From the NCBI RefSeq assembly GCF_037038585.1, contig NW_027288573.1, positions 1 to 64,000 of the forward strand: a stretch of DNA of 64,000 nt, in the 5' to 3' direction. This document shows, one piece after another, positions 13,588-64,000 of the stretch (positions are counted from its first letter, which is position 1; every line of letters begins with the position of its first letter). A program made the position numbers and the translations under genes. Under the pieces are notes generated by a model that was given only the letters and a program-made list of their open reading frames with translations, was not told where the DNA came from and searched no databases. This DNA comes from Patagioenas fasciata. Lineage: Eukaryota > Chordata > Aves > Columbiformes > Columbidae.

Positions 13588-13639
13588 ATTAAAAAATGTA
13601 AAAAAAACGTAAGCGTGTGGTTTGTTCTGTTTCCAGTGA

Positions 13640-14217: not shown

Positions 14218-14218
14218 G

Positions 14219-18044: not shown

Positions 18045-18999
18045 ATACAGAGGAGCAACGTGGCACAAAAAGGCAACAGAAGAGGCGAGCAGAGCGCCGT
18101 AAGCAGGTGGGACGGTGCGTGGTGCCAGCGGGAAGACGTGCTGTGTGGCTCTATGTAACTTTGGTCGTTTGTCTATTTTATAGGTGTGAAGTAAAGAGGA
18201 AAGCTGGGTATCCGCACCGCAGCTCCTCGGGCCAGGTGAATAATGAGTGCTGGCCGAAGCATCAGCTCATTTGAGGTCCCGTGTTGCTGCTGCAGGTATG
18301 AGCGCCCTTTGGTTGTGTTTTACAGGCGGTAGCTGAACCTCTTTGTGGTCAACAGCGTGGCAGTCCAAAGCAAGGGCGGGCAGGCGGGCGAGCGGCCCAG
18401 GTAAGGGAGGGGGAGGCGGGCCCGTCCGCGGGCAGGCTGTGCTTCCGGGCAGCGTCCGAGCGGGTGCCTTTGTTTTTGCAGGTGCCGCAGACGATCTCGG
18501 AGGAGTGAAGCCGCACGCCGACCAGCAGCAGCCGAGAAGGTGAGGCGGCGGTGGGAGTTGAAAAGCCCAGTGTCGCGTGGTGACTCGGTTCAGCGTTTCT
18601 TTCTTATTTTGCAGGCCCCTTTTGGGCCCTTTGGGCTTGGAGGAGCGTTTTCGGTGAGCTGGGGTAGGGGCTCAGAAGAGCATGGGGCTGGGGACTCACT
18701 CCAAGCGCTACGGTTCTTTTGTTTCTCGCTGTCTTAGGCGTCACGAGCGATGCGGGTTTCTGACTGCGCCCGAGGCAGCACACGCTGAGCGGAATGCCGT
18801 GGAACTTAGCAGGAGGTGGGTGCTGCGGAAGGGGTCGGCGTTCACCCCGCGATACTGTGTGCTGGCACGGCTCGGTGAGCGTGTGTTTTCTCGTGTTACT
18901 GTAGATGTTGAAGAGGAACCCGGCGATGCGGGGAGATCCCTGTTAGCGCACGTGGCGTTTTCTCTGTTGAAGATGGATTCGGTCCCTTGGCCCTCTTAA
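18045..18999 (+). CDS. Candidate spliced gene in unit 0, product unknown
   Basis: Exon-like blocks are 18045-18106, 18184-18235, 18326-18400, 18482-18539, 18615-18653 and 18738-18999, with small introns and GT..AG ends throughout. Frame A is open across the first three blocks, all phase-compatible with the ATG exon at 16603-16635. It reads GEQSAVSR, then KRKAGYPHRSSSGQ, then AVAEPLCGQQRGSPK, and stops at TGA in the fourth block (gaggagtga). Frame B is open from block 18326 (after an early TGA) through the last block, reading LGPLGLEERFRR, HERCGFLTAP, SRRWVLRKGSAFTPRYCVL and DSVPWPS, then TAA at 18997; no ATG is seen in it. The first block also reads KRQQKRRAERRKQ in a third frame. No known family was recognised, and a noncoding spliced RNA fits equally well. 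Confidence 0.3.
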
Positions 19000-20320
19000 A
19001 GATAAGTGGAGGCACGGGGGCTGGGAAGAGGCTGGGAATCGCAGGGAGGGGGGTAAAGTTCTGATAAGGGAAAGGGCCGTCCAGGAAAAGTCCCCTTTGG
19101 GTGGGTAAAGGGCCCAGGGAATTTACAGTGCGATACCAGCATGTGCCGGGCAGGGCAGCTCCAGCCTCTGTGTGTGGTGTTGTGTAGCTCGGGAAGCCTG
19201 CCTTGCGCCTCTCAGACGATCCTGGGGTCTCGTTGTGCTCGAGGGGCCCAAGAGGCATCTTGGGTGCCATCCTGGGATCTGGAATGCTGGTCCTAATTGG
19301 CATAGTGCCAATCGGGTGCTGGATTCTTGTATCAGCCGCAGAAAGCGTGGATGGTTCTTGCATTTTGGGTGTTTCTGGTCAGTTGTGATTTATGGTGTCA
19401 TTCTGGGCTGCATCAGCAGCTCTGCTCTCTACCCGTCCAGTGTAAGGGACTGGCACTTCAAGATGTTGGGAAGAAGTTCTTAGGTCGTGCCGCCGTCTCT
19501 GTGTGTTTGCGCCAGTGCTGCTGTCTTGTAAGGGGCCGTGACGTTTGGCTCCTTTTTTTTCTGGGATTGTGATAGAGGCTCCTCGCCTTACTAATTGGGT
19601 GTAATAATTGGGTGCTGGTTTTCTTGTATCAGCAGACGAAAGTGTGGACGGTTCTTGTGCCTTGGAAGTCGCTGGTCAGTTGTGTTTTCTGGTATCGCTG
19701 AGGGCTGCGTCGGCAGCTCTTCTCTCTACCTATCCAGTCTCAGGGACTGGCACTTCAAGATGCTGGGAAGAAGTTATTAGTTCTTGCAGCAGCTTCTTGT
19801 GTTTGCGCTGTCTCTGTGTGTTTGCGCCAGTGCCGCTGTCTCACAAGGGGCCAAGACGATTGGCTCAGTTTTATTGTGGGGTTGTAGTAGAGACTCCTTG
19901 CCTCACCACTGCCTCCCTGTAGGTTTTTGGACGGTGCCGTGTCTGCTTTTGGCGTCTTTGTTGTGGAGCGTTTTTTGGTGGCGTTTCCGTCGTGTTGTCT
20001 ATTGCGTTCTGTGGAGCGTCTGTCTGCACGTGCGCACAGTTGGCTGAGAGCTGCTCTGCCCGGAGGTTTGGAGTCTGGGGTGGATGCACTGAGCTGTAGG
20101 AGTCCACGGTTAATCTGTGGACGTGTTAAATTGTGTAGGCAAAGGCTGTGCAGTCATCTGGGAAGGAGTAGCCGTGGGCAGTGGCGGGGACAGTCCCTTC
20201 CCCAGTGTTTTAGGGACGCAATTAGAGCTTCTGATGGGATTCCTGAATAGAAAGCAGACCTGTGGAATGGTCAAGCTGTAGATGAGCTCCTGGGTGACTT
20301 GTTGAATAACGTGATTTCAG
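18045..20320 (+). repeat. Array unit 0, edge unit with a different 5' segment
   Basis: From block a rightward it matches the other units. However, 18107 to about 18310 is unrelated to the corresponding segment in units 1-20. It also keeps splice signals the others lack: donor gtggga after 18106 and acceptor ttttacag before 18326. Other variants are gatctc and gtgaag in block b and tgaaaagcc after it. Block d ends at 18999. Confidence 0.95.
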
Positions 20321-20650
20321 ATGCAGAGGGACAACTTGGCACGAAAAAGCCATGGAAGAGGCGAGCAGAGCGCCGTCAGCAGGAGGCTTTTAAGTGCACC
20401 ATCAGAATTGGAGCGAAATTCCACTTGACGTTGCTGCTGTCGGTCTTGGCTTTCACTGGTTTCCCCACGGCTCCCTAATGTTCGGGAGTTCAGAGTGGGC
20501 ATTTTTTTTCGCCAAGGAGAGGCTATGCTTAAAAATGAGTTTGTTTCCTCAAAGAAGTGCAAGTCCGTTTGTGTAACCCGAGCCTAGTCAGGTTGTGTTT
20601 TACGGGCGGTAGCTGAACCTCTTTCTGGTCAACAGCGTGGCAGTCCAAAG

Positions 20651-21279
20651 CAAGGGCGGGCAGGCGGGCGAGCGGCCCAGGTAAGGGCGGGGGAGGCGGG
20701 CCCGTCCGCGGGCAGGCTGTGCTTCCGGGCAGCGTCCGAGCGGGTGCCTTTGTTTTTGCAGGTGCCGCAGACGAGCTCGGAGGAGCGAAGCCGCACGCCG
20801 ACCAGCAGCAGCCGAGAAGGTGAGGCGGCGGTGGGAGTTGAGGAGCCCAGTGTCGCGTGGTGACTCGGTTCAGCGTTTCTTTCTTATTTTGCAGGCCCCT
20901 TTTGGGCCCTTTGGGCTTGGAGGAGCGTTTTCGGTGAGCTGGGGTAGGGGCTCAGAAGAGCATGGGGCTGGGGACTCACTCCAAGCGCTACGGTTCTTTT
21001 GTTTCTCCCTGTCTTAGGCATCACGAGCGATGCGGGTTTCTGACTGCGCCCGAGGCACCACACGCTGAGCGGAACGCCGTGGAACTTAGCAGGAGGTGGG
21101 TGCTGCGGAAGGGGTCGGCGTTCACCCCGCGATACTGTGTGCTGGCACGGCTCGGTGAGCGTGTGTTTTCTCGTGTTACTGTAGATGTTGAAGAGGAACC
21201 CGGCGATGCGGGGAGATCCCTGTTAGCGCACGTGGCGTTTTCTCTGTTGAAGATGGATTCGGTCCCTTGGCCCTCTTAA
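20651..21279 (+). CDS. Representative array open frame: four blocks, three mini-introns
   Basis: Block a ends at 20680 (donor gtaagg). Block b is 20762-20819 (acceptor gtttttgcag, donor gtgagg), block c 20895-20933 (acceptor cttattttgcag, donor gtgagc) and block d 21018-21279 (acceptor ctgtcttag). Introns are 81, 75 and 84 bp. Phases match at all three junctions, and the joined frame runs through motifs KPHADQQQPRR, PLLGPLGLEERF, AERNAVELSRRWVLRKG, RVTVDVEEEPGDAGRSLL and DSVPWPS to TAA. It is Arg-rich at the N-terminal end and recognised as no known family. There is no in-frame ATG; an in-frame TGA lies just upstream of block a. A start would need an upstream exon joining at the alternative acceptor (ggtcaacag) before block a. 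The same arrangement repeats in all units, but near-identity of units is weak evidence for coding. Confidence 0.35.
20681..20761 (+). other. Mini-intron a-b of the representative unit
   Basis: 81 bp, from gtaagggcgg to tgtttttgcag; very CpG-rich in its first half, pyrimidine-rich before the acceptor. It is present in every unit; unit 12 carries gcgg instead of gcag at the acceptor. Confidence 0.5.
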
Positions 21280-21593
21280 AGATAAGTGGAGGCACGGGGG
21301 CTGGGAAGAGGCTGGGAATCGCAGGGAGGGGGGTAAAGTTCTGATAAGGGAAAGGGCCGTCCAGGAAAAGTCCCCTTTGGGTGGGTAAAGGGCCCAGGGA
21401 ATTTACAGTGCGATACCAGCATGTGCTGGGCAGGGCAGCTCCAGCCTCTGTGTGTGGTGTTGTGTAGCTCGGGAAGCCTGCCTTGCGCCTCTCAGACGAT
21501 CCTGGGGTCTCGTTGTGCTCGAGGGGCCCAAGAGGCATCTTGGGTGCCATCCTGGGATCTGGAATGCTGGTCCTAATTGGCATAGTGCCAATC

Positions 21594-22186
21594 GGGTGCT
21601 GGATTCTTGTATCAGCCGCAGAAAGCGTGGATGGTTCTTGCATTTTGGGTGTTTCTGGTCAGTTGTGATTTATGGTGTCATTCTGGGCTGCATCAGCAGC
21701 TCTGCTCTCTACCCGTCCAGTGTAAGGGACTGGCACTTCAAGATGTTGGGAAGAAGTTCTTAGGTCGTGCCGCCGTCTCTGTGTGTTTGCGCCAGTGCTG
21801 CTGTCTTGTAAGGGGCCGTGACGTTTGGCTCCTTTTTTTTCTGGGATTGTGATAGAGGCTCCTCGCCTTACTAATTGGGTGTAATAATTGGGTGCTGGTT
21901 TTCTTGTATCAGCAGACGAAAGCGTGGACGGTTCTTGTGCCTTGGAAGTCGCTGGTCAGTTGTGTTTTCTGGTATCGCTGAGGGCTGCGTCGGCAGCTCT
22001 GCTCTCTACCTATCCAGTCTCAGGGACTGGCACTTCAAGATGCTGGGAAGAAGTTATTAGTTCTTGCAGCAGCTTCTTGTGTTTGCGCTGTCTCTGTGTG
22101 TTTGCGCCAGTGCCGCCGTCTCACAAGGGGCCAAGACGATTGGCTCAGTTTTATTGTGGGGTTGTAGTAGAGACTCCTTGCCTCAC
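21594..22186 (+). repeat. Internal tandem duplication within each unit
   Basis: The first copy (about 21594-21870) starts gggtgctggattcttgtatc. The second (about 21889-22186) starts gggtgctggttttcttgtatc. Both contain ggtcagttgtg, gcagctctgctctctacc, gggactggcacttcaagatg and a terminal gaggctcctcgcc or gagactccttgcc. Copies are clearly related but diverged. Founder copy 3 has a single copy, so the duplication preceded amplification. Confidence 0.85.
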
Positions 22187-22600
22187 CACTGCCTCCCTGT
22201 AGGTTTTTGGACGGTGCCGTGTCTGCTTTTGGCGTCTTTGTTGTGGAGCGTTTTTTGGTGGCGTTTCCGTCGTGTTGTCTATTGCGTTCTGTGGAGCGTC
22301 TGTCTGCACGTGCGCACAGTTGGCTGAGAGCTGCTCTGCCCGGAGGTTTGGAGTCTGGGGTGGATGCACTGAGCTGTAGGAGTCCACGGTTAATCTGTGG
22401 ACGTGTTAAATTGTGTAGGCAAAGGCTGTGCAGTCATCTGGGAAGGAGTAGCCGTGGGCAGTGGGGGGGACAGTCCCTTCCCCAGTGTTTTAGGGACGCA
22501 ATTGGAGCTTCTGATGGGATTCCTGAATAGAAAGCAGACCTGTGGAATGGTCAAGCTGTAGATGAGCTCCTGGGTGACTTGTTGAATAACGTGATTTCAG

Positions 22601-24880
22601 ATGCAGAGGGACAACTTGGCACGAAAAAGCCATGGAAGAGGCGAGCAGAGCGCCGTCAGCAGGAGGCTTTTAAGTGCACCATCAGAATTTGAGCGAAATT
22701 CCACTTGGCGTTGCTGCTGTCGGTCTTGGCTTTCACTGGTTTCCCCACGGCTCCCTAATGTTCGGGAGTTCAGAGTGGGCATTTTTTTTCCCCAAGGAGA
22801 GGCTATGCTTAAAAATGAGTTTGTTTCCTCAAAGAAGTGCAAGTCCGTTTGTGTAACCCGAGCCTAGTCAGGTTGTGTTTTACGGGCGGTAGCTGAACCT
22901 CTTTGTGGTCAACAGCGTGGCAGTCCAAAGCAAGGGCGGGCAGGCGGGCGAGCGGCCCAGGTAAGGGCGGGGGAGGCGGGCCCGTCCGCGGGCAGGCTGT
23001 GCTTCCGGGCAGCGTCCGAGCGGGTGCCTTTGTTTTTGCAGGTGCCGCAGACGAGCTCGGAGGAGCGAAGCCGCACGCCGACCAGCAGCAGCCGAGAAGG
23101 TGAGGCGGCGGTGGGAGTTGAGGAGCCCAGTGTCGCGTGGTGACTCGGTTCAGCGTTTCTTTCTTATTTTGCAGGCCCCTTTTGGGCCCTTTGGGCTTGG
23201 AGGAGCGTTTTCGGTGAGCTGGGGTAGGGGCTCAGAAGAGCATGGGGCTGGGGACTCACTCCAAGCGCTACGGTTCTTTTGTTTCTCCCTGTCTTAGGCA
23301 TCACGAGCGATGCGGGTTTCTGACTGCGCCCGAGGCACCACACGCTGAGCGGAACGCCGTGGAACTTAGCAGGAGGTGGGTGCTGCGGAAGGGGTCGGCG
23401 TTCACCCCGCGATACTGTGTGCTGGCACGGCTCGGTGAGCGTGTGTTTTCTCGTGTTACTGTAGATGTTGAAGAGGAACCCGGCGATGCGGGGAGATCCC
23501 TGTTAGCGCACGTGGCGTTTTCTCTGTTGAAGATGGATTCGGTCCCTTGGCCCTCTTAAAGATAAGTGGAGGCACGGGGGCTGGGAAGAGGCTGGGAATC
23601 GCAGGGAGGGGGGTAAAGTTCTGATAAGGGAAAGGGCCGTCCAGGAAAAGTCCCCTTTGGGTGGGTAAAGGGCCCAGGGAATTTACAGTGCGATACCAGC
23701 ATGTGCCGGGCAGGGCAGCTCCAGCCTCTGTGTGTGGTGTTGTGTAGCTCGGGAAGCCTGCCTTGCGCCTCTCAGACGATCCTGGGGTCTCGTTGTGCTC
23801 GAGGGGCCCAAGAGGCATCTCGGGTGCCATCCTGGGATCTGGAATGCTGGTCCTAATTGGCATAGTGCCAATCGGGTGCTGGATTCTTGTATCAGCCGCA
23901 GAAAGCGTGGATGGTTCTTGCATTTTGGGTGTTTCTGGTCAGTTGTGATTTATGGTGTCATTCTGGGCTGCATCAGCAGCTCTGCTCTCTACCCGTCCAG
24001 TGTAAGGGACTGGCACTTCAAGATGTTGGGAAGAAGTTCTTAGGTCGTGCCGCCGTCTCTGTGTGTTTGCGCCAGTGCTGCTGTCTTGTAAGGGGCCGTG
24101 ACGTTTGGCTCCTTTTTTTTCTGGGATTGTGATAGAGGCTCCTCGCCTTACTAATTGGGTGTAATAATTGGGTGCTGGTTTTCTTGTATCAGCAGACGAA
24201 AGCGTGGACGGTTCTTGTGCCTTGGAAGTCGCTGGTCAGTTGTGTTTTCTGGTATCGCTGAGGGCTGCGTCGGCAGCTCTGCTCTCTACCTATCCAGTCT
24301 CAGGGACTGGCACTTCAAGATGCTGGGAAGAAGTTATTAGTTCTTGCAGCAGCTTCTTGTGTTTGCGCTGTCTCTGTGTGTTTGCGCCAGTGCCGCCGTC
24401 TCACAAGGGGCCAAGACGATTGGCTCAGTTTTATTGTGGGGTTGTAGTAGAGACTCCTTGCCTCACCACTGCCTCCCTGTAGGTTTTTGGACGGTGCCGT
24501 GTCTGCTTTTGGCGTCTTTGTTGTGGAGCGTTTTTTGGTGGCGTTTCCGTCGTGTTGTCTATTGCGTTCTGTGGAGCGTCTGTCTGCACGTGCGCACAGT
24601 TGGCTGAGAGCTGCTCTGCCCGGAGGTTTGGAGTCTGGGGTGGATGCACTGAGCTGTAGGAGTCCACGGTTAATCTGTGGACGTGTTAAATTGTGTAGGC
24701 AAAGGCTGTGCAGTCATCTGGGAAGGAGTAGCCGTGGGCAGTGGGGGGGACAGTCCCTTCCCCAGTGTTTTAGGGACGCAATTAGAGCTTCTGATGGGAT
24801 TCCTGAATAGAAAGCAGACCTGTGGAATGGTCAAGCTGTAGATGAGCTCCTGGGTGACTTGTTGAATAACGTGATTTCAG
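22601..24880 (+). repeat. Array unit 2
   Basis: 2280 bp; block d ends at 23559 and shares gcatcacg with unit 1. The first block carries cttggcg where most units have cttgacg, so the ATG frame at 22601 stays open for 88 codons (to 22867) instead of stopping after about 34. Confidence 0.97.
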
Positions 24881-27160
24881 ATGCAGAGGGACAACTTGGC
24901 ACGAAAAAGCCATGGAAGAGGCGAGCAGAGCGCCGTCAGCAGGAGGCTTTTAAGTGCACCATCAGAATTGGAGCGAAATTCCACTTGGCGTTGCTGCTGT
25001 CGGTCTTGGCTTTCACTGGTTTCCCCACGGCTCCCTAATGTTCGGGAGTTCAGAGTGGGCATTTTTTTTCCCCAAGGAGAGGCTATGCTTAAAAATGAGT
25101 TTGTTTCCTCAAAGAAGTGCAAGTCCGTTTGTGTAACCCGAGCCTAGTCAGGTTGTGTTTTACGGGCGGTAGCTGAACCTCTTTGTGGTCAACAGCGTGG
25201 CAGTCCAAAGCAAGGGCGGGCAGGCGGGCGAGCGGCCCAGGTAAGGGCGGGGGAGGCGGGCCCGTCCGCGGGCAGGCTGTGCTTCCGGGCAGCGTCCGAG
25301 CGGGTGCCTTTGTTTTTGCAGGTGCCGCAGACGAGCTCGGAGGAGCGAAGCCGCACGCCGACCAGCAGCAGCCGAGAAGGTGAGGCGGCGGTGGGAGTTG
25401 AGGAGCCCAGTGTCGCGTGGTGACTCGGTTCAGCGTTTCTTTCTTATTTTGCAGGCCCCTTTTGGGCCCTTTGGGCTTGGAGGAGCGTTTTCGGTGAGCT
25501 GGGGTAGGGGCTCAGAAGAGCATGGGGCTGGGGACTCACTCCAAGCGCTACGGTTCTTTTGTTTCTCGCTGTCTTAGGCGTCACGAGCGATGCGGGTTTC
25601 TGACTGCGCCCGAGGCACCACACGCTGAGCGGAACGCCGTGGAACTTAGCAGGAGGTGGGTGCTGCGGAAGGGGTCGGCGTTCACCCCGCGATACTGTGT
25701 GCTGGCACGGCTCGGTGAGCGTGTGTTTTCTCGTGTTACTGTAGATGTTGAAGAGGAACCCGGCGATGCGGGGAGATCCCTGTTAGCGCACGTGGCGTTT
25801 TCTCTGTTGAAGATGGATTCGGTCCCTTGGCCCTCTTAAAGATAAGTGGAGGCACGGGGGCTGGGAAGAGGCTGGGAATCGCAGGGAGGGGGGTAAAGTT
25901 CTGATAAGGGAAAGGGCCGTCCAGGAAAAGTCCCCTTTGGGTGGGTAAAGGGCCCAGGGAATTTACAGTGCGATACCAGCATGTGCCGGGCAGGGCAGCT
26001 CCAGCCTCTGTGTGTGGTGTTGTGTAGCTCGGGAAGCCTGCCTTGCGCCTCTCAGACGATCCTGGGGTCTCGTTGTGCTCGAGGGGCCCAAGAGGCATCT
26101 CGGGTGCCATCCTGCGATCTGGAATGCTGGTCCTAATTGGCATAGTGCCAATCGGGTGCTGGATTCTTGTATCAGCCGCAGAAAGCGTGGATGGTTCTTG
26201 CATTTTGGGTGTTTCTGGTCAGTTGTGATTTATGGTGTCATTCTGGGCTGCATCAGCAGCTCTGCTCTCTACCCGTCCAGTGTAAGGGACTGGCACTTCA
26301 AGATGTTGGGAAGAAGTTCTTAGGTCGTGCCGCCGTCTCTGTGTGTTTGCGCCAGTGCTGCTGTCTTGTAAGGGGCCGTGACGTTTGGCTCCTTTTTTTT
26401 CTGGGATTGTGATAGAGGCTCCTCGCCTTACTAATTGGGTGTAATAATTGGGTGCTGGTTTTCTTGTATCAGCAGACGAAAGCGTGGACGGTTCTTGTGC
26501 CTTGGAAGTCGCTGGTCAGTTGTGTTTTCTGGTATCGCTGAGGGCTGCGTCGGCAGCTCTGCTCTCTACCTATCCAGTCTCAGGGACTGGCACTTCAAGA
26601 TGCTGGGAAGAAGTTATTAGTTCTTGCAGCAGCTTCTTGTGTTTGCGCTGTCTCTGTGTGTTTGCGCCAGTGCCGCCGTCTCACAAGGGGCCAAGACGAT
26701 TGGCTCAGTTTTATTGTGGGGTTGTAGTAGAGACTCCTTGCCTCACCACTGCCTCCCTGTAGGTTTTTGGACGGTGCCGTGTCTGCTTTTGGCGTCTTTG
26801 TTGTGGAGCGTTTTTTGGTGGCGTTTCCGTCGTGTTGTCTATTGCGTTCTGTGGAGCGTCTGTCTGCACGTGCGCACAGTTGGCTGAGAGCTGCTCTGCC
26901 CGGAGGTTTGGAGTCTGGGGTGGATGCACTGAGCTGTAGGAGTCCACGGTTAATCTGTGGACGTGTTAAATTGTGTAGGCAAAGGCTGTGCAGTCATCTG
27001 GGAAGGAGTAGCCGTGGGCAGTGGGGGGGACAGTCCCTTCCCCAGTGTTTTAGGGACGCAATTAGAGCTTCTGATGGGATTCCTGAATAGAAAGCAGACC
27101 TGTGGAATGGTCAAGCTGTAGATGAGCTCCTGGGTGACTTGTTGAATAACGTGATTTCAG
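24881..27160 (+). repeat. Array unit 3
   Basis: 2280 bp; block d ends at 25839. It also has cttggcg, leaving the ATG frame 24881-25147 open. It carries cctgcgatct at about 26111, shared only with unit 12. Confidence 0.97.
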
Positions 27161-29440
27161 ATGCAGAGGGACAACTTGGCACGAAAAAGCCATGGAAGAG
27201 GCGAGCAGAGCGCCGTCAGCAGGAGGCTTTTAAGTGCACCATCAGAATTGGAGCGAAATTCCACTTGACGTTGCTGCTGTCGGTCTTGGCTTTCACTGGT
27301 TTCCCCACGGCTCCCTAATGTTCGGGAGTTCAGAGTGGGCATTTTTTTTCCCCAAGGAGAGGCTATGCTTAAAAATGAGTTTGTTTCCTCAAAGAAGTGC
27401 AAGTCCGTTTGTGTAACCCGAGCCTAGTCAGGTTGTGTTTTACGGGCGGTAGCTGAACCTCTTTGTGGTCAACAGCGTGGCAGTCCAAAGCAAGGGCGGG
27501 CAGGCGGGCGAGCGGCCCAGGTAAGGGAGGGGGAGGCGGGCCCGTCCGCGGGCAGGCTGTGCTTCCGGGCAGCGTCCGAGCGGGTGCCTTTGTTTTTGCA
27601 GGTGCCGCAGACGAGCTCGGAGGAGCGAAGCCGCACGCCGACCAGCAGCAGCCGAGAAGGTGAGGCGGCGGTGGGAGTTGAGGAGCCCAGTGTCGCGTGG
27701 TGACTCGGTTCAGCGTTTCTTTCTTATTTTGCAGGCCCCTTTTGGGCCCTTTGGGCTTGGAGGAGCGTTTTCGGTGAGCTGGGGTAGGGGCTCAGAAGAG
27801 CATGGGGCTGGGGACTCACTCCAAGCGCTACGGTTCTTTTGTTTCTCGCTGTCTTAGGCGTCACGAGCGATGCGGGTTTCTGACTGCGCCCGAGGCACCA
27901 CACGCTGAGCGGAACGCCGTGGAACTTAGCAGGAGGTGGGTGCTGCGGAAGGGGTCGGCGTTCACCCCGCGATACTGTGTGCTGGCACGGCTCGGTGAGC
28001 GTGTGTTTTCTCGTGTTACTGTAGATGTTGAAGAGGAACCCGGCGATGCGGGGAGATCCCTGTTAGCGCACGTGGCGTTTTCTCTGTTGAAGATGGATTC
28101 GGTCCCTTGGCCCTCTTAAAGATAAGTGGAGGCACGGGGGCTGGGAAGAGGCTGGGAATCACAGGGAGGGGGGTAAAGTTCTGATAAGGGAAAGGGCCGT
28201 CCAGGAAAAGTCCCCTTTGGGTGGGTAAAGGGCCCAGGGAATTTACAGTGCGATACCAGCATGTGCCGGGCAGGGCAGCTCCAGCCTCTGTGTGTGGTGT
28301 TGTGTAGCTCGGGAAGCCTGCCTTGCGCCTCTCAGACGATCCTGGGGTCTCGTTGTGCTCGAGGGGCCCAAGAGGCATCTCGGGTGCCATCCTGGGATCT
28401 GGAATGCTGGTCCTAATTGGCATAGTGCCAATCGGGTGCTGGATTCTTGTATCAGCAGCAGAAAGCGTGGATGGTTCTTGCATTTTGGGTGTTTCTGGTC
28501 AGTTGTGATTTATGGTGTCATTCTGGCCAGCATCAGCAGCTCTGCTCTCTACCCGTCCAGTGTAAGGGACTGGCACTTCAAGATGTTGGGAAGAAGTTCT
28601 TAGGTCGTGCCGCCGTCTCTGTGTGTTTGCGCCAGTGCTGCTGTCTTGTAAGGGGCCGTGACGTTTGGCTCCTTTTTTTTCTGGGATTGTGATAGAGGCT
28701 CCTCGCCTTACTAATTGGGTGTAATAATTGGGTGCTGGTTTTCTTGTATCAGCAGACGAAAGCGTGGACGGTTCTTGTGCCTTGGAAGTCGCTGGTCAGT
28801 TGTGTTTTCTGGTATCGCTGAGGGCTGCGTCGGCAGCTCTGCTCTCTACCTATCCAGTCTCAGGGACTGGCACTTCAAGATGCTGGGAAGAAGTTATTAG
28901 TTCTTGCAGCAGCTTCTTGTGTTTGCGCTGTCTCTGTGTGTTTGCGCCAGTGCCGCCGTCTCACAAGGGGCCAAGACGATTGGCTCAGTTTTATTGTGGG
29001 GTTGTAGTAGAGACTCCTTGCCTCACCACTGCCTCCCTGTAGGTTTTTGGACGGTGCCGTGTCTGCTTTTGGCGTCTTTGTTGTGGAGCGTTTTTTGGTG
29101 GCGTTTCCGTCGTGTTGTCTATTGCGTTCTGTGGAGCGTCTGTCTGCACGTGCGCACAGTTGGCTGAGAGCTGCTCTGCCCGGAGGTTTGGAGTCTGGGG
29201 TGGATGCACTGAGCTGTAGGAGTCCACGGTTAATCTGTGGACGTGTTAAATTGTGTAGGCAAAGGCTGTGCAGTCATCTGGGAAGGAGTAGCCGTGGGCA
29301 GTGGGGGGGACAGTCCCTTCCCCAGTGTTTTAGGGACGCAATTAGAGCTTCTGATGGGATTCCTGAATAGAAAGCAGACCTGTGGAATGGTCAAGCTGTA
29401 GATGAGCTCCTGGGTGACTTGTTGAATAACGTGATTTCAG
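27161..29440 (+). repeat. Array unit 4
   Basis: 2280 bp; block d ends at 28119. It has ctggccagcatc at about 28524, shared only with unit 15, far to the right. Confidence 0.97.
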
Positions 29441-52181: not shown

Positions 52182-54461
52182 ATGCAGAGGGACAACTTGG
52201 CACGAAAAAGCCGTGGAAGAGGCGAGCAGAGCGCCGTCAGCAGGAGGCTTTTAAGTGCACCATCAGAATTGGAGCGAAATTCCACTTGACGTTGCTGCTG
52301 TCGGTCTTGGCTTTCACTGGTTTCCCCACGGCTCCCTAATGTTCGGGAGTTCAGAGTGGGCATTTTTTTTCCCCAAGGAGAGGCTATGCTTAAAAATGAG
52401 TTTGTTTCCTCAAAGAAGTGCAAGTCCGTTTGTGTAACCCGAGCCTAGTCAGGTTGTGTTTTACGGGCGGTAGCTGAACCTCTTTGTGGTCAGCAGCGTG
52501 GCAGTCCAAAGCAAGGGCGGGCAGGCGGGCGAGCGGCCCAGGTAAGGGCGGGGGAGGCGGGCCCGTCCGCGGGCAGGCTGTGCTTCCGGGCAGCGTCCGA
52601 GCGGGTGCCTTTGTTTTTGCAGGTGCCGCAGACGAGCTCGGAGGAGCGAAGCCGCACGCCGACCAGCAGCAGCCGAGAAGGTGAGGCGGCGGTGGGAGTT
52701 GAGGAGCCCAGTGTCGCGTGGTGACTCGGTTCAGCGTTTCTTTCTTATTTTGCAGGCCCCTTTTGGGCCCTTTGGGCTTGGAGGAGCGTTTTCGGTGAGC
52801 TGGGGTAGGGGCTCAGAAGAGCGTGGGGCTGGGGACTCACTCCAAGCGCTACGGTTCTTTTGTTTCTCGCTGTCTTAGGCGTCACGAGCGATGCGGGTTT
52901 CTGACTGCGCCCGAGGCAGCACACGCTGAGCGGAACGCCGTGGAACTTAGCAGGAGGTGGGTGCTGCGGAAGGGGTCGGCGTTCACCCCGCGATACTGTG
53001 TGCTGGCACGGCTCGGTGAGCGTGTGTTTTCTCGTGTTACTGTAGATGTTGAAGAGGAACCCGGCGATGCGGGGAGATCCCTGTTAGCGCACGTTGCGTT
53101 TTCTCTGTTGAAGATGGATTCGGTCCCTTGGCCCTCTTAAAGATAAGTGGAGGCACGGGGGCTGGGAAGAGGCTGGGAATCGCAGGGAGGGGTGTAAAGT
53201 TCTGATAAGGGAAAGGGCCGTCCAGGAAAAGTCCCCTTTGGGTGGGTAAAGGGCCCAGGGAATTTACAGTGCGATACCAGCATGTGCCGGGCAGGGCAGC
53301 TCCAGCCTCTGTGTGTGGTGTTGTGTAGCTTGGGAAGCCTGCCTTGCGCCTCTCAGACGATCCTGGGGTCTCGTTGTGCTCGAGGGGCCCAAGAGGCATC
53401 TCGGGTGCCATCCTGGGATCTGGAATGCTGGTCCTAATTGGCATAGTGCCAATCGGGTGCTGGATTCTTGTATCAGCAGCAGAAAGCGTGGATGGTTCTT
53501 GCATTTTGGGTGTTTCTGGTCAGTTGTGATTTATGGTGTCATTCTGGCCAGCATCAGCAGCTCTGCTCTCTACCCGTCCAGTGTAAGGGACTGGCACTTC
53601 AAGATGTTGGGAAGAAGTTCTTAGGTCGTGCCGCCGTCTCTGTGTGTTTGCGCCAGTGCTGCTGTCTTGTAAGGGGCCGTGACGTTTGGCTCCTTTTTTT
53701 TCTGGGATTGTGATAGAGGCTCCTCGCCTTACTAATTGGGTGTAATAATTGGGTGCTGGTTTTCTTGTATCAGCAGACGAAAGCGTGGACGGTTCTTGTG
53801 CCTTGGAAGTCGCTGGTCAGTTGTGTGTTCTGGTATCGCTGAGGGCTGCGTCGGCAGCTCTGCTCTCTACCTATCCAGTCTCAGGGACTGGCACTTCAAG
53901 ATGCTGGGAAGAAGTTATTAGTTCTTGCAGCAGCTTCTTGTGTTTGCGCTGTCTCTGTGTGTTTGCGCCAGTGCCGCCGTCTCACAAGGGGCCAAGACGA
54001 TTGGCTCAGTTTTATTGTGGGGTTGTAGTAGAGACTCCTTGCCTCACCACTGCCTCCCTGTAGGTTTTTGGACGGTGCCGTGTCTGCTTTTGGCGTCTTT
54101 GTTGTGGAGCGTTTTTTGGTGGCGTTTCCGTCGTGTTGTCTATTGCGTTCTGTGGAGCGTCTGTCTGCACGTGCGCACAGTTGGCTGAGAGCTGCTCTGC
54201 CCGGAGGTTTGGAGTCTGGGGTGGATGCACTGAGCTGTAGGAGTCCACGGTTAATCTGTGGACATGTTAAATTGTGTAGGCAAAGGCTGTGCAGTCATCT
54301 GGGAAGGAGTAGCCGTGGGCAGTGGGGGGGACAGTCCCTTCCCCAGTGTTTTAGGGACGCAATTAGAGCTTCTGATGGGATTCCTGAATAGAAAGCAGAC
54401 CTGTGGAATGGTCAAGCTGTAGATGAGCTCCTGGGTGACTTGTTGAATAACGTGATTTCAG
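52182..54461 (+). repeat. Array unit 15, left-type mosaic in the right half
   Basis: 2280 bp; block d ends at 53140. It carries left-type cgcctctcag and the unit 4 marker ctggccagc, but right-type cacgttgcg (shared with unit 14). Private changes: gggtgtaaag near 53191 and ggacatgtt near 54261. Confidence 0.97.
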
Positions 54462-56741
54462 ATGCAGAGGGACAACTTGGCACGAAAAAGCCATGGAAGA
54501 GGCGAGCAGAGCGCCGTCAGCAGGAGGCTTTTAAGTGCACCATCAGAATTGGAGCGAAATTCCACTTGACGTTGCTGCTGTCGGTCTTGGCTTTCACTGG
54601 TTTCCCCACGGCTCCCTAATGTTCGGGAGTTCAGAGTGGGCATTTTTTTTCCCCAAGGAGAGGCTATGCTTAAAAATGAGTTTGTTTCCTCAAAGAAGTG
54701 CAAGTCCGTTTGTGTAACCCGAGCCTAGTCAGGTTGTGTTTTACGGGCGGTAGCTGAACCTCTTTGTGGTCAACAGCGTGGCAGTCCAAAGCAAGGGCGG
54801 GCAGGCGGGCGAGCGGCCCAGGTAAGGGAGGGGGAGGCGGGCCCGTCCGCGGGCAGGCTGTGCTTCCGGGCAGCGTCCGAGCGGGTGCCTTTGTTTTTGC
54901 AGGTGCCGCAGACGAGCTCGGAGGAGCGAAGCCGCACGCCGACCAGCAGCAGCCGAGAAGGTGAGGCGGCGGTGGGAGTTGAGGAGCCCAGTGTCGCGTG
55001 GTGACTCGGTTCAGCGTTTCTTTCTTATTTTGCAGGCCCCTTTTGGGCCCTTTGGGCTTGGAGGAGCGTTTTCGGTGAGCTGGGGTAGGGGCTCAGAAGA
55101 GCATGGGGCTGGGGACTCACTCCAAGCGCTACGGTTCTTTTGTTTCTCCCTGTCTTAGGCGTCACGAGCGATGCGGGTTTCTGACTGCGCCCGAGGCAGC
55201 ACACGCTGAGCGGAACGCCGTGGAACTTAGCAGGAGGTGGGTGCTGCGGAAGGGGTCGGCGTTCACCCCGCGATACTGTGTGCTGGCACGGCTCGGTGAG
55301 CGTGTGTTTTCTCGTGTTACTGTAGATGTTGAAGAGGAACCCGGCGATGCGGGGAGATCCCTGTTAGCGCACGTGGCGTTTTCTCTGTTGAAGATGGATT
55401 CGGTCCCTTGGCCCTCTTAAAGATAAGTGGAGGCACGGGGGCTGGGAAGAGGCTGGGAATCGCAGGGAGGGGGGTAAAGTTCTGATAAGGGAAAGGGCCA
55501 TCCAGGAAAAGTCCCCTTTGGGTGGGTAAAGGGCCCAGGGAATTTACAGTGCGATACCAGCATGTGCCGGGCAGGGCAGCTCCAGCCTCTGTGTGTGGTG
55601 TTGTGTAGCTCGGGAAGCCTGCCTTGCGCCTGTCAGACGATCCTGGGGTCTCGTTGTGCTCGAGGGGCCCAAGAGGCATCTCGGGTGCCATCCTGGGATC
55701 TGGAATGCTGGTCCTAATTGGCATAGTGCCAATCGGGTGCTGGATTCTTGTATCAGCAGCAGAAAGCGTGGATGGTTCTTGCATTTTGGGTGTTTCTGGT
55801 CAGTTGTGATTTATGGTGTCATTCTGGCCTGCATCAGCAGCTCTGCTCTCTACCCGTCCAGTGTAAGGGACTGGCACTTCAAGATGTTGGGAAGAAGTTC
55901 TTAGGTCGTGCCGCCGTCTCTGTGTGTTTGCGCCAGTGCTGCTGTCTTGTAAGGGGCCGTGACGTTTGGCTCCTTTTTTTTCTGGGATTGTGATAGAGGC
56001 TCCTCGCCTTACTAATTGGGTGTAATAATTGGGTGCTGGTTTTCTTGTATCAGCAGACGAAAGCGTGGACGGTTCTTGTGCCTTGGAAGTCGCTGGTCAG
56101 TTGTGTGTTCTGGTATCGCTGAGGGCTGCGTCGGCAGCTCTGCTCTCTACCTATCCAGTCTCAGGGACTGGCACTTCAAGATGCTGGGAAGAAGTTATTA
56201 GTTCTTGCAGCAGCTTCTTGTGTTTGCGCTGTCTCTGTGTGTTTGCGCCAGTGCCGCCGTCTCACAAGGGGCCAAGACGATTGGCTCAGTTTTATTGTGG
56301 GGTTGTAGTAGAGACTCCTTGCCTCACCACTGCCTCCCTGTAGGTTTTTGGACGGTGCCGTGTCTGCTTTTGGCGTCTTTGTTGTGGAGCGTTTTTTGGT
56401 GGCGTTTCCGTCGTGTTGTCTATTGCGTTCTGTGGAGCGTCTGTCTGCACGTGCGCACAGTTGGCTGAGAGCTGCTCTGCCCGGAGGTTTGGAGTCTGGG
56501 GTGGATGCACTGAGCTGTAGGAGTCCACGGTTAATCTGTGGACGTGTTAAATTGTGTAGGCAAAGGCTGTGCAGTCATCTGGGAAGGAGTAGCCGTGGGC
56601 AGTGGGGGGGACAGTCCCTTCCCCAGTGTTTTAGGGACGCAATTAGAGCTTCTGATGGGATTCCTGAATAGAAAGCAGACCTGTGGAATGGTCAAGCTGT
56701 AGATGAGCTCCTGGGTGACTTGTTGAATAACGTGATTTCAG
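54462..56741 (+). repeat. Array unit 16
   Basis: 2280 bp; block d ends at 55420. Private change: gggccatcc near 55497 (others gggccgtcc). It has gttgtgtgttctgg, shared with units 10, 15 and 18. Confidence 0.97.
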
Positions 56742-59022
56742 ATGCAGAGGGACAACTTGGCACGAAAAAGCCATGGAAGAGGCGAGCAGAGCGCCGTCAG
56801 CAGGAGGCTTTTAAGTGCACCATCAGAATTGGAGCGAAATTCCACTTGACGTTGCTGCTGTCGGTCTTGGCTTTCACTGGTTTCCCCACGGCTCCCTAAT
56901 GTTCGGGAGTTCAGAGTGGGCATTTTTTTTCCCCAAGGAGAGGCTATGCTTAAAAATGAGTTTGTTTCCTCAAAGAAGTGCAAGTCCGTTTGTGTAACCC
57001 GAGCCTAGTCAGGTTGTGTTTTACGGGCGGTAGCTGAACCTCTTTGTGGTCAACAGCGTGGCAGTCCAAAGCAAGGGCGGGCAGGCGGGCGAGCGGCCCA
57101 GGTAAGGGCGGGGGAGGCGGGCCCGTCCGCGGGCAGGCTGTGCTTCCGGGCAGCGTCCGAGCGGGTGCCTTTGTTTTTGCAGGTGCCGCAGACGAGCTCG
57201 GAGGAGCGAAGCCGCACGCCGACCAGCAGCAGCCGAGAAGGTGAGGCGGCGGTGGGAGTTGAGGAGCCCAGTGTCGCGTGGTGACTCGGTTCAGCGTTTC
57301 TTTCTTATTTTGCAGGCCCCTTTTGGGCCCTTTGGGCTTGGAGGAGCGTTTTCGGTGAGCTGGGGTAGGGGCTCAGAAGAGCATGGGGCTGGGGACTCAC
57401 TCCAAGCGCTACGGTTCTTTTGTTTCTCGCTGTCTTAGGCGTCACGAGCGATGCGGGTTTCTGACTGCGCCCAAGGCAGCACACGCTGAGCGGAACGCCG
57501 TGGAACTTAGCAGGAGGTGGGTGCTGCGGAAGGGGTCGGCGTTCACCCCGCGATACTGTGTGCTGGCACGGCTCGGTGAGCGTGTGTTTTCTCGTGTTAC
57601 TGTAGATGTTGAAGAGGAACCCGGCGATGCGGGGAGATCCCTGTTAGCGCACGTGGCGTTTTCTCTGTTGAAGATGGATTCGGTCCCTTGGCCCTCTTAA
57701 AGATAAGTGGAGGCACGGGGGCTGGGAAGAGGCTGGGAATCGCAGGGAGGGGGGTAAAGTTCTGATAAGGGAAAGGGCCGTCCAGGAAAAGTCCCCTTTG
57801 GGTGGGTAAAGGGCCCAGGGAATTTACAGTGCGATACCAGCATGTGCCGGGCAGGGCAGCTCCAGCCTCTGTGTGTGGTGTTGTGTAGCTCGGGAAGCCT
57901 GCCTTGCGCCTGTCAGACGATCCTGGGGTCTCGTTGTGCTCGAGGGGCCCAAGAGGCATCTCGGGTGCCATCCTGGGATCTGGAATGCTGGTCCTAATTG
58001 GCATAGTGCCAATCGGGTGCTGGATTCTTGTATCAGCAGCAGAAAGCGTGGATGGTTCTTGCATTTTGGGTGTTTCTGGTCAGTTGTGATTTATGGTGTC
58101 ATTCTGGCCTGCATCAGCAGCTCTGCTCTCTACCCGTCCAGTGTAAGGGACTGGCACTTCAAGATGTTGGGAAGAAGTTCTTAGGTCGTGCCGCCGTCTC
58201 TGTGTGTTTGCGCCAGTGCTGCTGTCTTGTAAGGGGCCGTGACGTTTGGCTCCTTTTTTTTCTGGGATTGTGATAGAGGCTCCTCGCCTTACTAATTGGG
58301 TGTAATAATTGGGTGCTGGTTTTCTTGTATCAGCAGACGAAAGCGTGGACGGTTCTTGTGCCTTGGAAGTCGCTGGTCAGTTGTGTTTTCTGGTATCGCT
58401 GAGGGCTGCGTCGGCAGCTCTGCTCTCTACCTATCCAGTCTCAGGGACTGGCACTTCAAGATGCTGGGAAGAAGTTATTAGTTCTTGCAGCAGCTTCTTG
58501 TGTTTGCGCTGTCTCTGTGTGTTTGCGCCAGTGCCGCCGTCTCACAAGGGGCCAAGACGATTGGCTCAGTTTTATTGTGGGGTTGTAGTAGAGACTCCTT
58601 GCCTCACCACTGCCTCCCTGTAGGTTTTTGGACGGTGCCGTGTCTGCTTTTGGCGTCTTTGTTGTGGAGCGTTTTTTGGTGGCGTTTCCGTCGTGTTGTC
58701 TATTGCGTTCTGTGGAGCGTCTGTCTGCACGTGCGCACAGTTGGCTGAGAGCTGCTCTGCCCGGAGGTTTGGAGTCTGGGGTGGATGCACTGAGCTGTAG
58801 GAGTCCACGGTTAATCTGTGGACGTGTTAAATTGTGTAGGCAAAGGCTGTGCAGTCATCTGGGAAGGAGTAGCCGTGGGCAGTGGGGGGGGACAGTCCCT
58901 TCCCCAGTGTTTTAGGGACGCAATTAGAGCTTCTGATGGGATTCCTGAATAGAAAGCAGACCTGTGGAATGGTCAAGCTGTAGATGAGCTCCTGGGTGAC
59001 TTGTTGAATAACGTGATTTCAG
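56742..59022 (+). repeat. Array unit 17
   Basis: 2281 bp: one extra G in the G-run near 58886. Block d ends at 57700 and has the private change gcccaaggcag (others gcccgaggcag). Confidence 0.97.
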
Positions 59023-61302
59023 ATGCAGAGGGACAACTTGGCACGAAAAAGCCGTGGAAGAGGCGAGCAGAGCGCCGTCAGCAGGAGGCTTTTAAGTGCA
59101 CCATCAGAATTTGAGCGAAATTCCACTTGACGTTGCTGCTGTCGGTCTTGGCTTTCACTGGTTTCCCCACGGCTCCCTAATGTTCGGGAGTTCAGAGTGG
59201 GCATTTTTTTTCCCCAAGGAGAGGCTATGCTTAAAAATGAGTTTGTTTCCTCAAAGAAGTGCAAGTCCGTTTGTGTAACCCGAGCCTAGTCAGGTTGTGT
59301 TTTACGGGCGGTAGCTGAACCTCTTTGTGGTCAACAGCGTGGCAGTCCAAAGCAAGGGCGGGCAGGCGGGCGAGCGGCCCAGGTAAGGGCGGGGGAGGCG
59401 GGCCCGTCCGCGGGCAGGCTGTGCTTCCGGGCAGCGTCCGAGCGGGTGCCTTTGTTTTTGCAGGTGCCGCAGACGAGCTCGGAGGAGCGAAGCCGCACGC
59501 CGACCAGCAGCAGCCGAGAAGGTGAGGCGGCGGTGGGAGTTGAGGAGCCCAGTGTCGCGTGGTGACTCGGTTCAGCGTTTCTTTCTTATTTTGCAGGCCC
59601 CTTTTGGGCCCTTTGGGCTTGGAGGAGCGTTTTCGGTGAGCTGGGGTAGGGGCTCAGAAGAGCATGGGGCTGGGGACTCACTCCAAGCGCTACGGTTCTT
59701 TTGTTTCTCGCTGTCTTAGGCGTCACGAGCGATGCGGGTTTCTGACTGCGCCCGAGGCAGCACACGCTGAGCGGAACGCCGTGGAACTTAGCAGGAGGTG
59801 GGTGCTGCGGAAGGGGTCGGCGTTCACCCCGCGATACTGTGTGCTGGCACGGCTCGGTGAGCGTGTGTTTTCTCGTGTTACTGTAGATGTTGAAGAGGAA
59901 CCCGGCGATGCGGGGAGATCCCTGTTAGCGCACGTGGCGTTTTCTCTGTTGAAGATGGATTCGGTCCCTTGGCCCTCTTAAAGATAAGTGGAGGCACGGG
60001 GGCTGGGAAGAGGCTGGGAATCGCAGGGAGGGGGGTAAAGTTCTGATAAGGGAAAGGGCCGTCCAGGAAAAGTCCCCTTTGGGTGGGTAAAGGGCCCAGG
60101 GAATTTACAGTGCGATACCAGCATGTGCCGGGCAGGGCAGCTCCAGCCTCTGTGTGTGGTGTTGTGTAGCTCAGGAAGCCTGCCTTGCGCCTGTCAGACG
60201 ATCCTGGGGTCTCGTTGTGCTCGAGGGGCCCAAGAGGCATCTCGGGTGCCATCCTGGGATCTGGAATGCTGGTCCTAATTGGCATAGTGCCAATCGGGTG
60301 CTGGATTCTTGTATCAGCAGCAGAAAGCGTGGATGGTTCTTGCATTTTGGGTGTTTCTGGTCAGTTGTGATTTATGGTGTCATTCTGGCCTGCATCAGCA
60401 GCTCTGCTCTCTACCCGTCCAGTGTAAGGGACTGGCACTTCAAGATGTTGGGAAGAAGTTCTTAGGTCGTGCCGCCGTCTCTGTGTGTTTGCGCCAGTGC
60501 TGCTGTCTTGTAAGGGGCCGTGACGTTTGGCTCCTTTTTTTTCTGGGATTGTGATAGAGGCTCCTCGCCTTACTAATTGGGTGTAATAATTGGGTGCTGG
60601 TTTTCTTGTATCAGCAGACGAAAGCGTGGACGGTTCTTGTGCCTTGGAAGTCGCTGGTCAGTTGTGTGTTCTGGTATCGCTGAGGGCTGCGTCGGCAGCT
60701 CTGCTCTCTACCTATCCAGTCTCAGGGACTGGCACTTCAAGATGCTGGGAAGAAGTTATTAGTTCTTGCAGCAGCTTCTTGTGTTTGCGCTGTCTCTGTG
60801 TGTTTGCGCCAGTGCCGCCGTCTCACAAGGGGCCAAGACGATTGGCTCAGTTTTATTGTGGGGTTGTAGTAGAGACTCCTTGCCTCACCACTGCCTCCCT
60901 GTAGGTTTTTGGACGGTGCCGTGTCTGCTTTTGGCGTCTTTGTTGTGGAGCGTTTTTTGGTGGCGTTTCCGTCGTGTTGTCTATTGCGTTCTGTGGAGCG
61001 TCTGTCTGCACGTGCGCACAGTTGGCTGAGAGCTGCTCTGCCCGGAGGTTTGGAGTGTGGGGTGGATGCACTGAGCTGTAGGAGTCCACGGTTAATCTGT
61101 GGACGTGTTAAATTGTGTAGGCAAAGGCTGTGCAGTCATCTGGGAAGGAGTAGCCGTGGGCAGTGGGGGGGACAGTCCCTTCCCCAGTGTTTTAGGGACG
61201 CAATTAGAGCTTCTGATGGGATTCCTGAATAGAAAGCAGACCTGTGGAATGGTCAAGCTGTAGATGAGCTCCTGGGTGACTTGTTGAATAACGTGATTTC
61301 AG
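59023..61302 (+). repeat. Array unit 18
   Basis: 2280 bp; block d ends at 59981. Private changes: tagctcaggaagc near 60170 and ggagtgtgggg near 61052. The first block has aaagccgtgg, shared with units 12, 15 and 20. Confidence 0.97.
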
Positions 61303-63582
61303 ATGCAGAGGGACAACTTGGCACGAAAAAGCCATGGAAGAGGCGAGCAGAGCGCCGTCAGCAGGAGGCTTTTAAGTGCACCATCAGAATTGGAGCGAAA
61401 TTCCACTTGACGTTGCTGCTGTCGGTCTTGGCTTTCACTGGTTTCCCCACGGCTCCCTAATGTTCGGGAGTTCAGAGTGGGCATTTTTTTTCCCCAAGGA
61501 GAGGCTATGCTTAAAAATGAGTTTGTTTCCTCAAAGAAGTGCAAGTCCGTTTGTGTAACCCGAGCCTAGTCAGGTTGTGTTGTACGGGCGGTAGCTGAAC
61601 CTCTTTGTGGTCAACAGCGTGGCAGTCCAAAGCAAGGGCGGGCAGGCGGGCGAGCGGCCCAGGTAAGGGCGGGGGAGGCGGGCCCGTCCGCGGGCAGGCT
61701 GTGCTTCCGGGCAGCGTCCGAGCGGGTGCCTTTGTTTTTGCAGGTGCCGCAGACGAGCTCGGAGGAGCGAAGCCGCACGCCGACCAGCAGCAGCCGAGAA
61801 GGTGAGGCGGCGGTGGGAGTTGAGGAGCCCAGTGTCGCGTGGTGACTCGGTTCAGCGTTTCTTTCTTATTTTGCAGGCCCCTTTTGGGCCCTTTGGGCTT
61901 GGAGGAGCGTTTTCGGTGAGCTGGGGTAGGGGCTCAGAAGAGCATGGGGCTGGGGACTCACTCCAAGCGCTACGGTTCTTTTGTTTCTCGCTGTCTTAGG
62001 CGTCACGAGCGATGCGGGTTTCTGACTGCGCCCGAGGCAGCACACGCTGAGCGGAACGCCGTGGAACTTAGCAGGAGGTGGGTGCTGCGGAAGGGGTCGG
62101 CGTTCACCCCGCGATACTGTGTGCTGGCACGGCTCGGTGAGCGTGTGTTTTCTCGTGTTACTGTAGATGTTGAAGAGGAACCCGGCGATGCGGGGAGATC
62201 CCTGTTAGCGCACGTGGCGTTTTCTCTGTTGAAGATGGATTCGGTCCCTTGGCCCTCTTAAAGATAAGTGGAGGCACGGGGGCTGGGAAGAGGCTGGGAA
62301 TCGCAGGGAGGGGGGTAAAGTTCTGATAAGGGAAAGGGCCGTCCAGGAAAAGTCCCCTTTGGGTGGGTAAAGGGCCCAGGGAATTTACAGTGCGATACCA
62401 GCATGTGCCGGGCAGGGCAGCTCCAGCCTCTGTGTGTGGTGTTGTGTAGCTCGGGAAGCCTGCCTTGCGCCTGTCAGACGATCCTGGGGTCTCGTTGTGC
62501 TCGAGGGGCCCAAGAGGCATCTCGGGTGCCATCCTGGGATCTGGAATGCTGGTCCTAATTGGCATAGTGCCAATCGGGTGCTGGATTCTTGTATCAGCAG
62601 CAGAAAGCGTGGATGGTTCTTGCATTTTGGGTGTTTCTGGTCAGTTGTGATTTATGGTGTCATTCTGGCCTGCATCAGCAGCTCTGCTCTCTACCCGTCC
62701 AGTGTAAGGGACTGGCACTTCAAGATGTTGGGAAGAAGTTCTTAGGTCGTGCCGCCGTCTCTGTGTGTTTGCGCCAGTGCTGCTGTCTTGTAAGGGGCCG
62801 TGACGTTTGGCTCCTTTTTTTTCTGGGATTGTGATAGAGGCTCCTCGCCTTACTAATTGGGTGTAATAATTGGGTGCTGGTTTTCTTGTATCAGCAGACG
62901 AAAGCGTGGACGGTTCTTGTGCCTTGGAAGTCGCTGGTCAGTTGTGTTTTCTGGTATCGCTGAGGGCTGCGTCGGCAGCTCTGCTCTCTACCTATCCAGT
63001 CTCAGGGACTGGCACTTCAAGATGCTGGGAAGAAGTTATTAGTTCTTGCAGCAGCTTCTTGTGTTTGCGCTGTCTCTGTGTGTTTGCGCCAGTGCCGCCG
63101 TCTCACAAGGGGCCAAGACGATTGGCTCAGTTTTATTGTGGGGTTGTAGTAGAGACTCCTTGCCTCACCACTGCCTCCCTGTAGGTTTTTGGACGGTGCC
63201 GTGTCTGCTTTTGGCGTCTTTGTTGTGGAGCGTTTTTTGGTGGCGTTTCCGTCGTGTTGTCTATTGCGTTCTGTGGAGCGTCTGTCTGCACGTGCGCACA
63301 GTTGGCTGAGAGCTGCTCTGCCCGGAGGTTTGGAGTCTGGGGTGGATGCACTGAGCTGTAGGAGTCCACGGTTAATCTGTGGACGTGTTAAATTGTGTAG
63401 GCAAAGGCTGTGCAGTCATCTGGGAAGGAGTAGCCGTGGGCAGTGGCGGGGACAGTCCCTTCCCCAGTGTTTTAGGGACGCAATTGGAGCTTCTGATGGG
63501 ATTCCTGAATAGAAAGCAGACCTGTGGAATGGTCAAGCTGTAGATGAGCTCCTGGGTGACTTGTTGAATAACGTGATTTCAG
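61303..63582 (+). repeat. Array unit 19
   Basis: 2280 bp; block d ends at 62261. Private change: gttgtgttgtacggg near 61575. It has cagtggcggggac near 63441, shared with units 0 and 12. Confidence 0.97.
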
Positions 63583-64000
63583 ATGCAGAGGGACAACTTG
63601 GCACGAAAAAGCCGTGGAAGAGGCGAGCAGAGCGCCGTCAGCAGGAGGCTTTTAAGTGCACCATCAGAATTGGAGCGAAATTCCACTTGACGTTGCTGCT
63701 GTCGGTCTTGGCTTTCACTGGTTTCCCCACGGCTCCCTAATGTTCGGGAGTTCAGAGTGGGCATTTTTTTTCCCCAAGGAGAGGCTATGCTTAAAAATGA
63801 GTTTGTTTCCTCAAAGAAGTGCAAGTCCGTTTGTGTAACCCGAGCCTAGTCAGGTTGTGTTTTACGGGCGGTAGCTGAACCTCTTTGTGGTCAGCAGCGT
63901 GGCAGTCCAAAGCAAGGGCGGGCAGGCGGGCGAGCGGCCCAGGTAAGGGAGGGGGAGGCGGGCCCGTCCGCGGGCAGGCTGTGCTTCCGGGCAGCGTCCG
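63583..64000 (+). repeat. Array unit 20, cut by the window edge
   Basis: The first 418 bp of another unit: first block, block a (with the cagcagcgtggcag variant also in units 12 and 15) and part of the a-b intron. The array therefore continues beyond the window. Confidence 0.97.

Follow-up and report, generated by a model that had tools for sequence, protein, structure and literature searches.

A probable young, gene-derived tandem amplicon with a chain of splice signals in each unit, from a pigeon-family genome

The first 64,000 nucleotides of contig NW_027288573.1 from Patagioenas fasciata (the window, hereafter) contain a head-to-tail array of a 2.28-kb unit that begins at position 18311, reaches the window end at 64000 and runs on beyond it. 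Its units are highly alike and carry shuffled variants; each holds a + strand chain of splice signals and a CpG-rich module, and older relatives of the unit stand at the border of the array. The explanation favoured here, with a probability of about 0.55, is that the array is a young gene-derived tandem amplicon (macrosatellite) of a pigeon-family bird, the + strand of which is transcribed now or was transcribed recently.

The array was delimited with one unit (20325-22604) as BLAST query against the whole window, and 2,280 bp was the top-scoring lag of repeat periodicity; both results bear out the 2.28-kb head-to-tail array described in an initial annotation of this DNA. All copies lie on the + strand. 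A partial first copy (u00, 18311-20324; 2,014 bp) is 99.2% identical to the next unit and is followed by 19 full units of 2,241-2,281 bp (20325-63586; mean pairwise identity 99.16%) and by the first 414 bp of another unit, cut by the window end (63587-64000). The full units number 19, and the twenty-one of the initial annotation are reached only if the hybrid first copy is counted together with the 414-bp end piece; the starting point of 18045 given there has to be moved, since the near-identical part begins at 18311. To the left of 18311 lie partial relatives, BLAST pieces within 15004-15476 and 17019-18107 matching the last exon and spacer of the unit at 76-91% identity.

The 19 full units differ by 65 single-nucleotide polymorphism (SNP) columns and by indels of 1, 10 and 39 bp. 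All four allele combinations occur in 123 of the 325 pairs of informative biallelic sites, and such patchwork sharing of variants speaks for exchange or gene conversion among the units, with a possible contribution to this count from recurrent mutation, for example at CpG. A deletion of 10 bp, together with variants at unit 1582-1688, is common to the non-adjacent units u07 (34005) and u09 (38555); either a tract of conversion or the duplication of two units would account for this. Unit u13 (47665) has a 39-bp deletion and seven private changes clustered within unit 628-655, for which conversion from a variant copy outside the window may be responsible. An assembly artefact, with copies added by the assembler, is scarcely credible: reads are not visible from the window sequence, but even the closest two of the 19 units are 3 substitutions apart, and some units have indels of their own.

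One line of evidence for a gene-like origin is the splice signals. Chains of strictly alternating donors and acceptors were scored with hand-written splice-site position matrices, dinucleotide shuffles serving as control. On the + strand of unit 200-1000, a four-intron chain scored 32.1, and none of 300 shuffles went above 12.2; the - strand of the same segment scored -2.7 and showed no splice chain. The whole unit scored 38.5 (maximum of 300 shuffles, 22.9), and the spacer alone was at chance level (90 of 300 shuffles). Strong donors are no commoner than in shuffled sequence and strong acceptors only slightly so (13 of 300 shuffles reach five); what sets the unit apart is how good its best sites are and how they are ordered. 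As a second control, 43 overlapping tiles over 1-17601 were scored. Only three exceeded 15, all on the + strand and all in block 2, a diverged relative of the unit described below.

The four predicted introns are given here for the first full unit, in which a position equals the unit consensus coordinate plus 20324. They lie on the + strand at 20681-20761 (unit 357-437; 81 bp, GT..AG), 20820-20894 (unit 496-570; 75 bp), 20934-21017 (unit 610-693; 84 bp) and 21096-21184 (unit 772-860; 89 bp), the last exon following the fourth, and the exons between them measure 58, 39 and 78 bp. All eight splice dinucleotides are intact in the 19 units, save that the first acceptor reads AG in 18 of them. The canonical splice signals that had been claimed for every unit are borne out in this sense, none of the 300 shuffles reaching the chain score. 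A conserved stop had been claimed as well. The TAA ending the last exon (21277-21279 in the first full unit) is indeed kept in 19 of 19 units, but the spliced frame leading there holds another stop.

A CpG-island-like module (20595-21284, unit 271-960, + strand) has, in the consensus, a GC content of 0.62 and an observed/expected CpG ratio of 0.97, compared with 0.35-0.87 in the other seven stretches of the unit. The CpG-rich kilobase that the initial annotation assigned to each unit is real as a module, but its length is nearer 0.7 kb. CpG transitions (20 of 67) occur, per base, at 3.55 times the rate of other changes, and the array has thus undergone some methylation-type decay; relative to the number of CpG bases, they come to 0.082 in the module, 0.231 in unit 961-1366 and 0.014 in unit 1367-2280. 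The spacer contains a direct repeat, also on the + strand, the two copies of which (21590-21868, unit 1266-1544, and 21886-22183, unit 1562-1859) are 77-82% identical. Alignment of the 19 units revealed an SNP-free stretch at 22013-22354 (unit 1689-2030, + strand); a gap of this length between neighbouring SNPs, 343 bp, has P=0.002 under uniform placement. Overall, there are 14 changes in the 914 bp of spacer 1367-2280 against 47 in the 1,096 bp of unit 271-1366. An invariant spacer segment (unit 1689-2030) beside a varying CpG module is the reverse of the pattern expected for a conserved gene with a free spacer.

Relatives of the unit, likewise on the + strand, lie at the left border of the array. 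Block 1 (14219-15476) is a diverged partial relative in which last-exon and spacer pieces match the unit. Block 2 (16357-18107) is a second diverged relative, and tiles over 16001-17601 gave + strand chain scores of 21.7-26.6; the two blocks are 76-82% alike where they can be aligned. A border copy (18045-19000) carries six chained introns (18107-18183, 18236-18325, 18401-18481, 18540-18614, 18654-18737 and 18816-18904), to which the chain adds a weak seventh at 19101-19215. Where the border copy has 18108-18310, the array units carry a different segment of about 207 bp (20384-20590, unit ~60-266, + strand), the two sharing no BLAST match. Just downstream of this segment, the exon-D acceptor reads ACAG in the border copy and ACGG in 19 of 19 array units. 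The six-intron chain of the border copy, the differing segment and the differing acceptor together suggest that the array was derived from the 3' part of the last old gene copy, and we infer that descent ran from the border copy to the array. An older small-exon gene that was already duplicated looks to have left block 1, block 2 and the border copy.

Several searches bear on whether this gene encoded a protein. In the border copy, the spliced frame that reaches the TAA is interrupted by a stop in exon E and by another in exon G; stops also occur in both remaining spliced frames, and no spliced frame is open throughout. In array unit u14, a CpG change at unit 462 falls in the codon matching the exon E stop of the border copy. 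The longest + strand open reading frame (ORF) of the unit starting with ATG has 105 amino acids, against a shuffle mean of 102; the - strand has one of 155 amino acids, without a shuffle control for comparison. A 160-amino-acid minus-strand ORF yielded 42 protein candidates, none of which scored. Pfam searches of six frames of one unit gave no family above cut-off and one Kunitz match below it (14.7 of 21 bits), and those of the spliced frames gave neither a family above cut-off nor a homeobox. No Rfam match reached the gathering score in the window, and 20200-22800 gave one match with E=2.1 (16.2 of 40 bits); an array of ribosomal DNA, 5S or small nuclear RNA genes is rejected on this ground.

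The joined exon translations returned 6,358 candidates among 5.8 billion proteins, of which only one, P0121, scored. It is a sequence from an 833-bp ENA contig that reads through the predicted introns and thus looks like genomic DNA of a relative; it had no match in PDB. None of the annotated bird proteins of 123-392 amino acids scored against the joined exons at the sensitivity of the tool, and exact-word scans of viral contigs (two words) and genome contigs (one word) gave no matches. A tandemly amplified gene for a fast-evolving basic protein might explain why the last-exon frame with its TAA persists in all 19 units and why a similar C-terminal frame occurs in block 2 and in P0121. Such a gene would nevertheless be a surprise, given the exon G stop in the spliced frame leading to the TAA (joined by the exon E stop in the border copy), the shuffle-level + strand ORF and the lack of annotated homologs in that size range. 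With no open spliced frame, no protein or RNA family and no AATAAA or ATTAAA on the + strand, a non-coding or decayed gene is favoured over a protein gene as the nature of the unit. The description 'gene-bearing macrosatellite' in the initial annotation can accordingly be kept as far as gene derivation goes, the splice chain and CpG module being real, but not in the sense of an intact reading frame.

Two features of base composition and change are relevant to transcription. Transcription-linked strand asymmetry is expected to produce an excess of G+T on the RNA-like strand, and G+T on the + strand is 0.607 in the unit and 0.588 in 14219-18044, compared with 0.513 in 1-14000. Among low-frequency changes in the array, read on the + strand, there are nine A>G and no T>C (p=2e-4, post hoc; 6:0 without the changes private to unit 13), which suits transcription. 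A small-RNA source, which had been listed among the possible roles, finds no support: one unit contains no inverted-repeat pairs of at least 14 bp, and folding of 90-nt windows gave no convincing hairpin (lowest z -2.9). Of the other roles listed there, a long spliced RNA and a methylation-controlled domain may apply.

A number of observations weigh against a transcribed, gene-derived amplicon. The first acceptor is broken in unit u12. SNP columns number 8 in 275 bp of exons and 16 in 329 bp of introns, and constraint on the splice sites is not evident; 8 of the 16 intron sites lie in or near the cluster of one unit and possibly stem from one conversion event. The similarity to P0121, by eye, is about equal in introns and exons. 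AATAAA and ATTAAA are absent from the + strand of 18311-64000 (the - strand has 20), and of nine weaker poly(A) variants tried on the + strand only AATAGA is present, at unit 2202. The loss of the exon-D acceptor leaves the first exon of the array unit undefined, and in block 1 the chain score is no higher than 6.0. The lowest G+T values are those of the exons (0.542) and of unit 1-270 (0.54), and the A>G bias was not repeated in a three-way comparison with the older copies (8:6, 4:10 and 1:6).

Several of these observations would suit an inert satellite, that is, a dead gene fragment amplified by chance, homogenised by unequal exchange and untranscribed. The closed spliced frames, the missing poly(A) hexamer, the unclear exon constraint and the failure to find an annotated protein relative all agree with this explanation, which is unlikely on balance though it deserves serious weight. 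The CpG ratio of 0.97 in the module and the SNP-free spacer gap count against it as hints of low germline methylation or of constraint, but local conversion or the young age of the array may lie behind both.

For the preferred explanation, a gene-derived amplicon transcribed now or recently, the following course of events may be envisaged. A gene rich in GC, its exons very short and its introns 75-90 bp long, would have been duplicated locally, giving block 1, block 2 and the border copy. By unequal exchange, the last copy's 3' part, which runs from exon D through the last exon and includes the spacer, would then have multiplied into at least 20 units, and exchange and gene conversion would keep these alike. 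The units would be transcribed on the + strand, at present or until recently, and their RNA would most likely be spliced, non-coding or decayed, and made in the germ line, in line with the amplicons on chicken dot chromosomes. If the array is expressed, gene-derived macrosatellites would arise in pigeons as in chicken, and the older relatives at the array edge would offer a before-and-after record of a gene turning into a satellite.

In anatomy, the array most closely resembles gene-bearing amplicons found on the dot chromosomes and the W chromosome of chicken. Amplicons of protein genes or long non-coding RNAs are described on chicken dot chromosomes, and a HINT1W array on the W (PMC9974502). 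Likenesses are the bird host, the head-to-tail unit with a gene or long non-coding RNA, the high GC and the spread of copies as satellite DNA; the sequence is different, and the HINT1W unit measures 5,648 bp, against 2.28 kb here (PMC9974502). The chicken amplicons are marked by intact or expressed copies, often with testis expression, and by a pericentromeric place on a dot chromosome or a place on the W (PMC9974502). The likeness of the pigeon array to them is one of anatomy. As in the chicken type, near-identical tandem units each carry gene structure, here a splice structure with no intact reading frame. The pigeon array appears to add a further case to the gene-bearing arrays known from chicken and does not look like a new kind of system.

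Chicken MHM is a second CpG-rich avian tandem repeat with a unit of about 2.2-2.3 kb (record AB046698, 2,332 nt). MHM is hypermethylated in males, gives RNA in females and has a BamHI site per unit. The array has no BamHI site, and its host is not chicken. The four chicken MHM primers in Table 6 of PMC1386693 matched at best with 5-7 mismatches, at the chance level set by shuffled primers (averages of 5.3-8.5). Identity with chicken MHM is rejected on these two grounds; the primer mismatches exclude the chicken sequence and not a far-diverged homolog. An RNA domain under the control of sex or methylation, working as in MHM through transcription in one sex or state and methylation-dependent silencing in the other, would fit the similar unit length, the CpG richness, the tandem arrangement and the bird host, but with chance-level primers and without the BamHI unit it is improbable.

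DXZ4 and D4Z4 of mammals also consist of kilobase-sized, GC-rich tandem units, each D4Z4 unit containing a double-homeobox ORF and each DXZ4 unit a CTCF site. The likeness to them drawn in the initial annotation holds only for general architecture; the pigeon unit comes from a bird, no homeobox was found in its spliced frames or when one unit was scanned in six frames against Pfam, and it cannot be placed with D4Z4. As to CTCF, the best site in the unit matched 11 of 13 positions of a hand-written consensus, a level that 78 of 100 shuffles reached or exceeded. It would be a long shot to regard the array as the pigeon-family counterpart of MHM or DXZ4, a tandem and spliced non-coding transcription unit whose CpG module would, together with its near-invariant duplicated spacer, serve as a copy-number-dependent, methylation-switched germ-line chromatin domain or RNA body.

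Tandem repeats described for columbids include a 28-mer (MuDR2-TC) and PR1 (PMC10849363). The 28-mer is absent from the window at up to 3 mismatches. Another chicken repeat, the LL2R lumpy-loop repeat, is placed on chromosome 2 (PMC7151628). No description of the 2,280-bp repeat was found in the literature searched, mostly at the level of titles and abstract openings, and a term search in PMC13076225 was likewise negative.

Upstream of the array, a PDB match and a protein search identified the last exon of neuropeptide FF receptor 2 (NPFFR2) at 46-966 on the - strand. Columba livia (88% over 91% of the query) and Alopecoenas beccarii (89% over 69%) head the named matches. A tree built from the window copy plus 29 of the 120 listed matches places it with Columba, Alopecoenas and two further sequences (support 98/93); those two also contain read-through intron and may for that reason be pulled towards the window copy. 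By raw differences over 213 columns the groups are hardly distinguishable: the window copy stands 24-25 from the four columbid-like sequences and 25-33 from six others, and is distant from all compared relatives. This affinity with pigeons and doves supports a bird host, probably of the pigeon family. The window copy has 13 private changes, at positions where the ten compared relatives otherwise agree, against 1-7 in each of those relatives; among the 13 is loss of the tyrosine of the NPxxY motif. Six translations of 1000-15700, with stops as X, gave no Pfam family and no further 7tm match, and one minus frame of 967-15000 had no match in PDB. The private changes and the lack of another 7tm match suggest that the NPFFR2 copy is probably a decayed duplicate.

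Two other features were observed in the left flank. The stretches at 8760-9000 and 10370-10500, which include a 34-bp tandem repeat, hold seven ATTGG (inverted CCAAT) motifs, counted by eye, and look like promoters. Dense minisatellites with units of 29-31, 52 and about 10 bp occupy 11180-12880 and 14064-14217 and may hint at a GC-rich small chromosome.

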